From: a virus
IMG/VR virus record: IMGVR_UViG_3300047157_000136
Location: 1-45,076 of that record
Length of the DNA: 45,076 nucleotides
Reading direction: 5' to 3' (one strand)
This document shows positions 8,423 to 44,998 of this stretch, one piece after another. A program made the translations under genes and the position numbers. How positions within the stretch are numbered: the stretch's first letter is position 1; every line of letters begins with the position of its first letter. The notes below the pieces were generated by a model that was given only the letters and a program-made list of their open reading frames with translations, did not search any database and was not told the DNA's origin.

Positions 8423-8614
8423 AGCACTCATACCGTTACTCGTAGAAGCAATGGTTATGTTCTCGCTTATTGTTTGGGCATTGGTTCTAATCACACTCGA
8501 AGCACCTAGACTTGGACCACCTAACTCTACTGCTGAGTTAATGTCACTAGCAGTAATTGTGTTGTCTAGTATTTCGTTGGTTGTAATTCCACCGCCACTA
8601 ATCGTTATTGCCAT
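8402..8614 (-). CDS. short tail fibre protein, C-terminus shortened by a one-base frameshift
   Basis: As read, this is a 70-residue protein (MAITISGGGITTNEILDNTI onward) ending abruptly in MSAGTNNNR. Its N-terminus matches the first 40 residues of the 175-residue fibre protein at 6462-6989. The natural C-terminus of this family lies in the +1 frame just past a GGG at 8420-8422: skipping one G restores GPITIADGYTVTVNGNWSVV and a stop that overlaps the next ATG. The 663-residue fibre ends in the related ALTAGPITINSGVSVTIP followed by TGSTWIVA. So the gene is frameshifted by mutation, by sequencing error, or by programmed slippage. The short form may be non-functional. Confidence 0.6.
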   Translation of the reverse strand: MAITISGGGITTNEILDNTITASDINSAVELGGPSLGASSVIRTNAQTISENITIASTSNGMSAGTNNNR

Positions 8615-8623
8615 TCGTTACTC

Positions 8624-8920
8624 CTATGGTTTTGGAAACTCAGACTTAATTGCTACTATGGCATCCTTGTGTGTAGTCGTGCCATTAATAGAATCATCGC
8701 TGATTAATTCAAATTGATTTAACGCATCGTATTTAGCTTTGCGTTTTCTTGCGTATTCTTGTGAGTCGTAGACTGCTTGAAGTCTAATTACTTCAGCATC
8801 AATTTCTGCTTGAGTAGGTTGTACAATATCATCAGACTTCCATATTACTACTCCATCTAATGGTAAAGTCCATACTGCGTTAGGTGTTAATGATTTTATT
8901 GCGTCTATTATTGTAATCAT
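8624..8920 (-). CDS. tail fibre assembly-like protein, paralog B
   Basis: A 98-residue protein paralogous to the product of 6999-7316. Shared features are an N-terminal 'IKSLTPNAVWTL' segment, the core VQPTQAEIDAEVIRLQAVYD, a basic helix (YARKRKAKYDALNQFEL) and a closing 'HKDAIVAIKSEFPKP'. Such small proteins accompany tail-fibre genes in many phages and are suspected assembly partners. It lies between the 257-residue fibre module and the frameshifted short fibre gene. The two paralogs differ most in the middle, where partner specificity could lie. That is inference. Confidence 0.62.
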   Translation of the reverse strand: MITIIDAIKSLTPNAVWTLPLDGVVIWKSDDIVQPTQAEIDAEVIRLQAVYDSQEYARKRKAKYDALNQFELISDDSINGTTTHKDAIVAIKSEFPKP

Positions 8921-38525: not shown

Positions 38526-38554
38526 TTGAACTCAATTTAATTGGATTTTATAGT
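38526..38554 (+). promoter_or_regulatory. cI maintenance promoter, overlapping operator
   Basis: TTGAAC (38526-38531), a 17-bp spacer and TATAGT (38549-38554) form a good sigma70 promoter. Transcription would start about position 38561, at or next to the ATG at 38562, so the cI message would be leaderless, as it is from lambda PRM. The spacer contains the palindrome CAATTTAATTG (38533-38543), so repressor bound there would regulate this promoter directly. Confidence 0.72.
38529..38550. promoter_or_regulatory. operator at the cI/cro switch
   Basis: CAATT-T-AATTG at 38533-38543 is a perfect palindrome around one base. The surrounding 20 bp (TCAATTTAATTGGATTTTAT) recur with one mismatch at 39791-39810 in the other early control region, and the 13-mer AACTCAATTTAAT recurs at 39710-39722. 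Shared operators at both early regions are expected for a lambda-type repressor. Binding by the 143-residue repressor is inferred. Confidence 0.65.
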
Positions 38555-38561
38555 AAAAGTT

Positions 38562-38993
38562 ATGAGTGAAAAAGTTATTTCAAAAAATATAACAAAGGAC
38601 AATTATGATCTCACCACCATAGCGGGCAGAGTGAGATGGAAAAGAGAGAGTCTTAATCTACAGTCAAACACCTTGGCTACTATGTGCGGCGTCCCATCAA
38701 CATCTATTAATATGCTTGAAATGGGTAAAGTACAGCAACCAAGATATTTAACTACCCTGGCTGATAAATTACAGACAACTACTGATTATTTATTGTATGG
38801 ACAATCAGACGATACAAGAGTCAGCGTTCCTAAAAATTCAACATTAGTTTCAGTAAATCAAGAAATGCGTCCTGATTTTAATAACAAAGATTACTATGTT
38901 GTAGAGATCAATAAAGGTAGTACACCTTTCTATTCGGCTGGTATGACTCAGGTCGGAGAAATTAAAGAAATTTTCGTAGGTCATAAAAAATAA
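38562..38993 (+). CDS. CI-type HTH repressor without peptidase domain
   Basis: A 143-residue protein. The ATG at 38562 is preferred to an in-frame TTG at 38541 because the promoter's -10 box overlaps that region. Residues about 20-75 are an XRE helix-turn-helix (VRWKRESLNLQSNTLATMCG then VPSTSINMLEMGKVQQP), followed by LTTLADKLQTTTDYLLYG. The last 70 residues (PKNSTLVSVNQEMRPDFNNK, VEINKGSTPFYSAGMTQVGE) are too short for the S24/LexA self-cleaving domain, and no Ser/Lys pair in the usual context is seen. It probably keeps the prophage silent by binding CAATTTAATTG operators, and may be released by an antirepressor rather than RecA. Confidence 0.78.
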   Translation: MSEKVISKNITKDNYDLTTIAGRVRWKRESLNLQSNTLATMCGVPSTSINMLEMGKVQQPRYLTTLADKLQTTTDYLLYGQSDDTRVSVPKNSTLVSVNQEMRPDFNNKDYYVVEINKGSTPFYSAGMTQVGEIKEIFVGHKK

Positions 38994-39338
38994 AATAACC
39001 TATATATCAATAATATATATGATATATTTGAGTTCATAGTGAGAGGCATTAGACACTTATAAAGCGGATGCAAAACGACTGACTCTGCCAGCAGCGTTTA
39101 ACAAATTAATACAGAATGGCTAACAGCCACTACTTGCAGTTTAAAGGGTGTTGCCCTAAAACAACTAGGAAGAAAAACCTAGATTAAGCACTAAACTGCA
39201 TACTTCAAAAATTTACGATAAGCAATTATTCGGTTAAAAGAATTGCACAATTAAGGACAGATGGTACTGGCATTTGTAGGAGTTCCTGTATGGAAACTTG
39301 ATGTCAACATCTTTAAGTACAAACCTACGGAGATAAGA
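38994..39338 (+). other. 345-base intergenic region after cI
   Basis: No convincing gene is found here. It holds an AT-rich inverted repeat (ATATATCA at 39002-39009 with TGATATAT at 39020-39027), then the structured RNA candidate at 39073-39200. A weaker hairpin follows (GCAATT at 39221-39226 with AATTGC near 39240-39245), then AAGGACAG before an ATG at 39261 that opens the same frame as the next gene. The density of stems is far higher than in coding parts of the window. Confidence 0.55.
39073..39200 (+). ncRNA. structured RNA candidate with three-way junction
   Basis: Four local stems and one enclosing stem can be drawn. H1: AAACG-a-CTG (73-81 of 39000) pairs with CAGCGTTT (92-99). H2: TGGCT (117-121), loop AAC, AGCCA (125-129). 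P1: TGCAGTTTA (135-143) pairs with TAAACTGCA (192-200) over nine bases and encloses two hairpins, AGGG/CCCT (145-148 with 154-157) and CTAGG/CCTAG (165-169 with 178-182). The joining strands are A-rich. No open frame uses this DNA well. It could be a regulatory RNA of the immunity region, comparable in position to C4/CI RNAs of P1 and P4, or a cis-acting leader of the next gene. Strand is assumed from gene direction. Confidence 0.5.
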
Positions 39339-39710
39339 ATGAAAAGTAATTTTTTAAATAAAATCCAGGCAATTTACTTTACGCCTGAAACACACAATCA
39401 TTTAAATTTTTCACTTGCTCAAGAGAGTCATGCTAAGTTATATATTCATGATTCATTACAAACTTTAAAAGACTTGTGTTCAAAAGTAGTTTTAAATATC
39501 AAACAGATATTAATAACTTGTTGCGACATTTTAGAAATGCTGGAAAATGTTCCGTCAATTAATAAACATCATGATTGTATAGATATGAGTAGTTGCGCGT
39601 GTGACCCAATTGTTAAACTAGCTGCCTACATGGATGCGTATGATGTTGACCCAAGCAATGTGACTAGCTCAATGATCAGAAAAGAGTGCGATGTCATAGC
39701 TAATTGCTAA
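39339..39710 (+). CDS. unknown protein downstream of cI; candidate antirepressor
   Basis: A 123-residue protein from the ATG at 39339, which follows CGGAG at a 6-nt distance. A longer form from 39261 (AAGGACAG upstream) would add 26 residues. It has KIQAIYFTPETHNHLNFSLA, then a helical LQTLKDLCSKVVLNIKQILI with a cysteine pair (TCCDILEMLENV), a Cys-rich stretch (HDCIDMSSCACDP) and an end KECDVIANC; seven or more cysteines suggest metal binding. A terminator follows directly. I do not recognise it. Its place after cI and a structured RNA fits an immunity or antirepressor function, but nothing in the protein itself proves that. Confidence 0.6.
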   Translation: MKSNFLNKIQAIYFTPETHNHLNFSLAQESHAKLYIHDSLQTLKDLCSKVVLNIKQILITCCDILEMLENVPSINKHHDCIDMSSCACDPIVKLAAYMDAYDVDPSNVTSSMIRKECDVIANC

Positions 39711-39732
39711 ACTCAATTTAATATTTATCCTC

Positions 39733-39758
39733 AAGCCCTATTAGCGTAGGGCTTTTTT
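39733..39758 (+). terminator. rho-independent terminator after the 123-residue gene
   Basis: AAGCCCTA (39733-39740), loop TTAGCG, TAGGGCTT (39747-39754) followed by a T run gives a perfect 8-bp stem with U-tract. It ends the cI-side transcript before the second early control region. Confidence 0.9.
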
Positions 39759-39789
39759 ACGCCTCTTACAAAGTTTTTTTGTCATTTTA

Positions 39790-39867
39790 TTCAATTTAAT
39801 TGTATTTTATTCAATTTTATATGGTATTATTTCTGTTATCCAATTAAATATATCAACTAAATTGGAT
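39790..39867. promoter_or_regulatory. early rightward control region with repeated operators
   Basis: CAATTTAATTG at 39792-39802 repeats the cI/cro operator with 19 of 20 bp in the wider match. A related half (TTCAATTTTAT) follows at 39810-39820. ATCCAATT (39838-39845) and AATTGGAT (39860-39867) form a perfect 8-bp inverted repeat. The region is very AT-rich and must hold the promoter of the 39909-44998 operon; several -10-like hexamers exist (TATTAT at 39825-39830, TAAATT at 39858-39863), but I cannot choose one. Confidence 0.6.
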
Positions 39868-43667: not shown

Positions 43668-43952
43668 ATGTTAGAATATAAAACTATCGGGCAATTCGCA
43701 GCTGAATCAGGCTACACAGAAAGAGCCGTTAGGGAAAAGATAAGGAAAGGTGTTTTCCCTGAAGATGATGTTTGGTTGCGTGGCCCCGATAATAGAATTT
43801 TAATAAGTATAAAAGGGTTTAATGAATGGGTAAGAAACGGATCGGAGTTTCTGTCGGAAGTGAAAGTAGCGTCACCCTTACCTTCCGTTACCAAGAGCGT
43901 ACAGTTAAAGAACGAATTAAAACTAGGGGTAAGCCCACTAGTGCTGACTTAG
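43668..43952 (+). CDS. excisionase-like HTH protein, overlapping integrase
   Basis: A 94-residue protein. Residues 1-57 resemble phage excisionases: YKTIGQFAAESGYTERAVRE, then KIRKGVFPEDDVWLRGPDNR and ILISIKGFNEWV. The last 42 codons (43827-43952) lie on the same DNA as the first 42 codons of the integrase, in another frame, a 127-bp overlap. The C-terminal tail (VKVASPLPSVTKSVQLKNEL) could be a by-product of the overlap. It likely directs integrase toward excision by bending attR/attL DNA. Confidence 0.72.
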   Translation: MLEYKTIGQFAAESGYTERAVREKIRKGVFPEDDVWLRGPDNRILISIKGFNEWVRNGSEFLSEVKVASPLPSVTKSVQLKNELKLGVSPLVLT

Positions 43953-44998
43953 ATGCTGCTTTTCAAAAAAGGCAGCAAATAAAGTATGCTATAAAAGATG
44001 GTTCGTTTGATTTTGCCTCAACATTTCCTGATTCAAAAAAGCACCATTGGTTTACCTTAGGTGGTTCAACTAAGTTCAAACCTTTTTTAACTCGTTATCA
44101 TAAAAAACATCTCGCTGATGATGATCTAGCAGATTCTACTGAAAATACTAATACTGGCATTGTTAACAGGCTTAATGATAAATTAGGTAAATTGTATCTT
44201 TCTCAAATAACAAAGGAAGTAATAGAAAAATTCTTTGATGAAAAAAGACTTGAGAATGGAAAAAAAATATCTACTAAAACTATTAATAATTATTTAGCGG
44301 TTCTTAGGCCCGCTCTTCAAGATGCTGTCAATAGTAATTTACTGAGCAAAAATCCTTTAGATAATGTGATAATAACTGGTTCAAAAAGTAAAGCTAAAGA
44401 AGCAATCGAACCTTATAGTCATTATGAAATGAATGCTATTTTAAATAGTTGTAAGGGTCAGCTACACAATATATTCAAGTTTGCTTTTTGGACAGGATTA
44501 CGACCTTCTGAATTAATTGAACTGAAATATAGTGATATTGATAATGGCAAAATATATGTCGCTAGAAAAAGGACAGCATACTCCAAAAGTCCTGAAGGAT
44601 TAAAAACAAAAGCAAGTTATAGATCAATTAAATTATTACCTGATGCTTTAGCTGCTATTGAGAACCAAAAACAATACACTTTTGATTTACAGCAACATAT
44701 TTTTCATAATCCAAATACTAATAAACCCTGGCATTCTCCTAAGATTTATAGAGAAGCTTGGGTAAGAACCTTAAATAAAACTGATATAAAATATAGATAC
44801 CCTTACCAAACGCGTCATACATTTGCTACAATGATGTTAAGTGCTGGGGAAAATTTATTGTGGGTTTCAAATGCAATGGGTCATGAATCTACTAAAGAAA
44901 CTTTAGATACATATTCAAGATGGATACAAGATAACGATTCAGATGTTGGTATGAAGGCAGCACAAAAGTTTAAATTTGAACAGAAAATAGCTAATTAA
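43826..44998 (+). CDS. int: tyrosine integrase
   Basis: A 390-residue phage integrase. N-terminal arm-binding domain about 1-65 (SSVTLTFRYQERTVKERIKT), core-binding domain about 80-185, catalytic domain from about 195. Catalytic residues: Arg226 in WTGLRPSEL, a Lys in GLKTKASYRS (about 260-262), Arg330 in YQTRHTFAT (the usual first His of HxxR is replaced by Tyr327), His353 in MGHES and the nucleophile Tyr363 in DTYSRW. It integrates the phage at the 3' end of a host tRNA/tmRNA gene; its stop lies 52 bp before the tRNA-like core. The start lies inside the excisionase-like gene. Confidence 0.93.
   Translation: MGKKRIGVSVGSESSVTLTFRYQERTVKERIKTRGKPTSADLDAAFQKRQQIKYAIKDGSFDFASTFPDSKKHHWFTLGGSTKFKPFLTRYHKKHLADDDLADSTENTNTGIVNRLNDKLGKLYLSQITKEVIEKFFDEKRLENGKKISTKTINNYLAVLRPALQDAVNSNLLSKNPLDNVIITGSKSKAKEAIEPYSHYEMNAILNSCKGQLHNIFKFAFWTGLRPSELIELKYSDIDNGKIYVARKRTAYSKSPEGLKTKASYRSIKLLPDALAAIENQKQYTFDLQQHIFHNPNTNKPWHSPKIYREAWVRTLNKTDIKYRYPYQTRHTFATMMLSAGENLLWVSNAMGHESTKETLDTYSRWIQDNDSDVGMKAAQKFKFEQKIAN

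Follow-up and report, generated by a model that had tools for sequence, protein, structure and literature searches.

Organization of the locus

The window analysed here is a 45,076-nt stretch of viral DNA (IMG/VR record IMGVR_UViG_3300047157_000136). On its plus strand, a cI-like HTH repressor gene, a folded RNA, the gene that occupies the slot 3' of the RNA (the slot gene) and a terminator follow one another as a single unit (Table 1). The window also carries an integrase gene, and its phage is therefore temperate. The slot gene encodes a Cys-rich protein of 123 aa that found no match in Pfam, PHROG, PADLOC or PDB folds, and whose predicted model is helical with a pLDDT of 77. An alternative upstream ATG at 39261 falls within helix P5 of the RNA. 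No tRNA or tmRNA was found at the region. Boxes resembling CAATTTAATTG recur at 38530-38545, 39712-39722 and 39785-39810 of the window, ahead of both early operons, and are likely, though putative, repressor operators.

The folded RNA beside the repressor gene of this marine phage is real. The original prediction had described it as a 128-base stretch without a good open frame, and both the described helices (H1, H2, a 9-bp stem and two inner hairpins) and the lack of coding potential were confirmed at that place, the longest stop-free run in the window's 304-nt element being 37 codons. Covariation and the existence of homologues, both phage and bacterial, strongly support its being a structured RNA, but its size had been underestimated: conservation spans 39038 to 39329-39332. 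The 128 bases are the middle of an element of ~300 nt that begins ~45 nt after the repressor stop and ends at the Shine-Dalgarno (SD) sequence before the ATG at 39339.

Table 1. Coordinates of genes and RNA features in the window
Feature	Position	Strand	Basis
HTH repressor (cI-like) gene, 5' of RNA	38562..38993	+	Pfam HTH_3 1.1e-5; PHROG repressor/regulator families
Whole structured leader RNA, P1 to SD	39038..39332	+	covariance model, L035 alignment, L006/L015 cassette extent
P1 hairpin (AGUG/CACU)	39038..39057	+	four P1 pairs changed on both sides
PK1 pseudoknot, GCAUU 39046-39050 with GAUGC 39067-39071	39046..39071	+	loop/tail energy test
H1 (P3) hairpin with a bulge and a conserved loop; strands 39073-39081/39092-39099, 8 bp, A39078 bulged	39073..39099	+	6/8 pairs changed on both sides
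Conserved unpaired AACAAAUUAAUACAGAA	39100..39116	+	alignment A7
H2 hairpin, 39117-39121/39125-39129	39117..39129	+	folding; equivalent hairpins in relatives
Three-way junction; 9-bp closing stem 39135-39143/39192-39200, inner hairpins 39145-39157 and 39165-39182	39135..39200	+	MFE in window and L127, L125, L039, L035, L126
3' element; P5 39259-39263/39308-39312, PK2 39264-39268/39316-39320, P6 39269-39273/39301-39305	39259..39320	+	covariation, 9 sequences
Shine-Dalgarno GGAG	39329..39332	+	sequence
Slot gene, 3' of RNA; 123 aa Cys-rich helical protein	39339..39710	+	homologues begin MKS
Terminator (hairpin then T-run) of the repressor-RNA-slot gene unit	39733..39754	+	inverted repeat, sequence
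Integrase gene	43826-44998		PHROG 1, 2.7e-58

Secondary structure and covariation

The folding energy of the 128 nt was -31.5 kcal/mol, compared with -21.9 +/- 3.2 kcal/mol for dinucleotide shuffles (z -2.96; 0/200 as good), and the reverse strand gave a weaker signal against its shuffles (z -2.09). Over the full 304 nt, the MFE was not better than that of shuffles (z -0.44), pseudoknots being outside the folding model. Relatives folded independently adopted the same layout of hairpin and three-way junction with other stem letters (e.g., CUAGG/CCUAG, GAGGA/UCCUC and CAUGGG/CCCAUG). Wobble pairs were G-U in six cases and A-C in one, which places the RNA on the plus strand.

The covariation analysis that had been proposed for this region bore out H1, which covaries strongly over 18 related copies. 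Across P1 and H1, 10 of 13 pairs were changed on both sides among the 18 distinct core copies, and nine different complementary stem pairs were seen for P1 alone. The covariation score of P1 and H1 was 0.428, versus 0.130 +/- 0.023 for shuffled alignments (0/500) and at most 0.073 for slid ones; alignment A7 was fitted to the model structure and is biased towards it, and even so the shuffled and slid versions scored far lower than the native one. PK1 joins the P1 loop to the segment 5' of H1, with pairs that differ between copies: GCAU/AUGC in the window, AGGCU/AGCCU in L016, GAGCU/AGCUC in L126, GCUUCC/GGAAGC in L125 and CCUAU/AUAGG in L036. Its native energy over 16 copies was -7.0 kcal/mol, whereas permuting the partners gave -5.04 +/- 0.45 kcal/mol (p 2e-5); an earlier run gave p 0.003 on 24 modules that included ATG-proximal ones, and 0.027 on 14 non-redundant modules. 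In the 3' element with PK2 (nine sequences), 100% of cells were paired and seven pairs were changed on both sides, for a score of 0.300 versus 0.104 when shuffled (0/500). The PK2 strands read GUACU/AGUAC, and GGUCU/AGACC in the host copy L035.

Distribution in phages and bacterial chromosomes

Phage copies were gathered via relatives of the repressor and by pattern scans of viral contigs, and a covariance model (R1) was made from four copies, the window excluded. R1 recovered both the copy in the window (39038-39114, E 3.5e-10) and the divergent one of L009 (1.7e-9), and it matched at least 11 other phage contigs. In the temperate phages with copies (L003, L006, L007, L009, L013, L015, L016, L025 and L124-L128), the RNA always has an HTH repressor gene on its 5' side and another gene on its 3' side, and both the repressors upstream and the genes downstream are of unrelated types. 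When the region and the module were compared with 50,697 phage records by blastn, one weak, chance-level match was all that was returned. Pattern matches in phage contigs L019, L020, L092, L104, L110, L116, L118 and L123 were discarded as chance, being without structure or within genes, as were the genome matches L022, L023 and L024.

Among 84,980 bacterial and archaeal species scanned for the pattern, the one true match was in a gammaproteobacterial MAG in which the copy is flanked by ordinary chromosomal genes. R1 matched 10 of 83 genomes in the order of this MAG, which has small genomes (0.7-2.8 Mb) and which we suspect to be SUP05/Thioglobaceae, and 1 of 369 genomes in a class-wide sample, that one being the starting genome. 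The match in G048 (9.0e-5) falls within a gene and is apparently fortuitous. This marine order presumably provides the hosts of the phages.

The host mostly keeps the RNA at one locus, where the usual order is sugar kinase, small winged-helix protein, RNA and membrane protein; on visual inspection the last resembles MASE1, an assignment that found no support in Pfam. The slot protein of the window matches proteins encoded beside the winged-helix gene of the host locus (hhalign prob 95.6, E 1.1e-8; L059:1860-2462, L060:1108-1470), and in one genome the host homologue is fused to the membrane domain. The phage and host units are therefore related beyond the RNA. One genome has a second chromosomal copy 5' of a solute-binding protein gene (L033:1501-1579), preceded by a 15-bp perfect hairpin.

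Exchange of the element between unrelated flanks

Phage contigs L006 and L015 have 302 nt in common, 99.3% identical and running from P1 to the Shine-Dalgarno sequence. They have no other same-strand DNA in common (E 1e-4; both contigs include the flanking repressor and slot genes), and unrelated repressors and slot genes flank their near-identical element. The pairs L007/L013, L125/L127 and window/L035 behave similarly, with the alignment of the window to the host copy L035 spanning the whole element (39030-39355; 77% over 331 nt). Judged by these alignments, the element appears to be passed around as a cassette between phages and host. In phages and hosts alike, the conserved unit stops at the SD/ATG, and no conserved promoter or terminator was found in the shared unit, which ends at the ribosome site. 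This extent is what a 5' leader moved whole would look like.

The 5' module ahead of other genes

About 40 further phage contigs carry a shorter form, consisting of P1-PK1, an A-rich linker and GUAGGAG, placed 5-10 nt 5' of a start codon. The gene that follows was checked by Pfam in L090 only, where the module (8600-8640) directly precedes a ClpP gene (Pfam 3.7e-33) of a T4-like marine phage; by eye, this gene sits between primase- and helicase-like genes. In the ATG-proximal modules, the 3' strand of the pseudoknot overlaps the Shine-Dalgarno sequence, which suggests translational control. The corresponding PK1 strand in the window (GAUGC) is not an SD, and there the 5' domain therefore cannot act by masking the SD directly. 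Two 5' modules stand in tandem in L096, and two or three in a host leader 3' of a winged-helix gene (L044, reverse strand).

Proposed function and alternatives

We consider it fairly probable that the RNA acts in cis, as a 5' leader that would control translation of the gene at 39339, and that it is exchanged between phage and host as a cassette. Since the unit ends at the SD, has no conserved promoter or terminator, and occurs in chromosomal copies without a repressor, a 5' leader fits better than a stand-alone immunity RNA. As in cis-regulatory leaders generally, conserved structure lies directly 5' of an SD and start codon, before varied genes. The RNA is a new family within this known kind of structured leader, and its mobility is unusual.

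The leader would be transcribed together with the repressor gene or just after it. It folds into three parts: P1-PK1-H1 form a pseudoknot domain at the 5' end, H2 and the three-way junction make up a variable middle, and P5-PK2-P6 form a second pseudoknot at the 3' end, directly before the ribosome-binding site. It probably sets the efficiency with which ribosomes initiate on the gene at 39339, in response to a signal that the host would supply. The same leader precedes a membrane-protein gene in host chromosomes, and the cassette fits different coding sequences. We infer that translation of the slot gene is what it regulates; against this, no visible sequestration of the SD and no apparent switch mechanism are seen in the window. 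A response to a host signal may be supposed because unpaired stretches are conserved, and the varied downstream genes suggest no ligand.

Rather unlikely, in our judgement, is a leader that constitutively enhances translation or stabilises the mRNA without sensing, conserved also as a recombination joint for mosaic phages. Exchange of the cassette between unrelated flanks and the pseudoknot placed immediately 5' of the SD would both be expected of such a leader, but the H1 loop and AACAAAUUAAUACAG are unpaired yet highly conserved, which suggests specific recognition, and the host copy is mostly kept at one locus.

The original prediction likened the RNA to the small RNAs of P1 and P4 immunity. 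We regard as unlikely a trans-acting sRNA that would control immunity in this manner, whether transcribed from its own promoter or processed from the repressor mRNA. The constant position just 3' of the repressor gene in temperate phages and the strong conservation of unpaired stretches would agree with it, and the C4 antisense RNA of P1/P4 (RF01695) is likewise a structured RNA of a phage immunity region. C4, however, acts in trans as an antisense RNA, whereas the unit described here runs exactly from P1 to the SD of the next gene without conserved promoter or terminator, and its chromosomal and T4-like phage copies adjoin no repressor. A loop able to pair with a target in the ant leader 3' of it would be expected of a C4 RNA. 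The sole match of this kind, the suggested pairing of TGCCAG (39086-39091) with CTGGCA (at 39267-39272, one base from the position first given), exists in the window and is absent from every relative checked; it is therefore probably due to chance. The proposed Rfam comparison, C4 included, returned nothing at the gathering threshold in the window or its relatives, and no C4 at E<=5 on 38990-39350.

Very unlikely is a put/nut-like RNA that alters RNA polymerase for terminator read-through. The structured RNA does lie near the beginning of a transcription unit, like HK022 put, but in the window only one gene and then the terminator follow, and in other phages copies stand 5-10 nt 5' of start codons. 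A small coding sequence, decayed or active and conserved as protein, is hardly credible: a 94-codon stop-free frame in L006, L015 and L128 (L006:5078-5362) was equalled in 0/300 shuffles, but the window copy and others interrupt this frame, length differences are not multiples of three, and the covarying stems largely refute it. An attachment site was not favoured, with the integrase 4.5 kb away and the conserved unit being an RNA with covariation.

Returning to the translation-controlling leader, a more specific and tentative reading is that it is a new riboswitch-like sensor RNA of one order of small-genome marine gammaproteobacteria, captured by temperate phages as a plug-in cassette; the direction of transfer between phage and host is one that we infer. 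If so, the slot gene would follow the same host signal as the chromosomal membrane-protein gene, and T4-like phages would use the 5' pseudoknot module alone before clpP. Should the RNA sense the state of the host, the phage would tie a gene probably expressed in the prophage to a host RNA sensor. A leader of ~300 nt outside Rfam 15, common to phages and chromosomes, is transferred whole from one coding sequence to another, unrelated one, and the element offers a defined RNA for testing the use of a host sensor by phages.

Comparison with known leader RNAs

No description of this leader RNA was found in the papers searched, and no Rfam model, riboswitch classes included, scored above its gathering threshold. 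The leader of T4 gene 32 is a pseudoknot in a phage mRNA, 5' of the start codon, that controls translation (PMC3014915). It is a single short pseudoknot, autoregulated by gp32 and not common to host genes (PMC3014915), whereas the leader described here has ~300 nt, two pseudoknots and varied genes. The manA and wcaG motifs are structured leaders of marine T4-like phages and candidate riboswitches, manA occurring also in gammaproteobacteria (PMC2864571); they differ in genes and structure, and neither matched at the Rfam gathering threshold.

The sole Rfam family resembling the 5' module is GP20-b (RF03003), catalogued as cis-regulatory, in which a hairpin is likewise followed by AAAAAAGCGUA. 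It scored 17.5 bits in the module of L107 and 10.4 in that of L090 (gathering 36.2), had no match in the window, and differs in being without H1, the three-way junction and the 3' pseudoknot. GP20-b was reportedly described in a 2017 survey. The H-type pseudoknot riboswitches preQ1-I and SAM-II combine a small hairpin, a loop-tail pseudoknot, an A-rich linker and an SD in the tail. Their conserved bases differ from those of the ATG-proximal copies, which Rfam did not match to them, and the likeness in layout is one of analogy.
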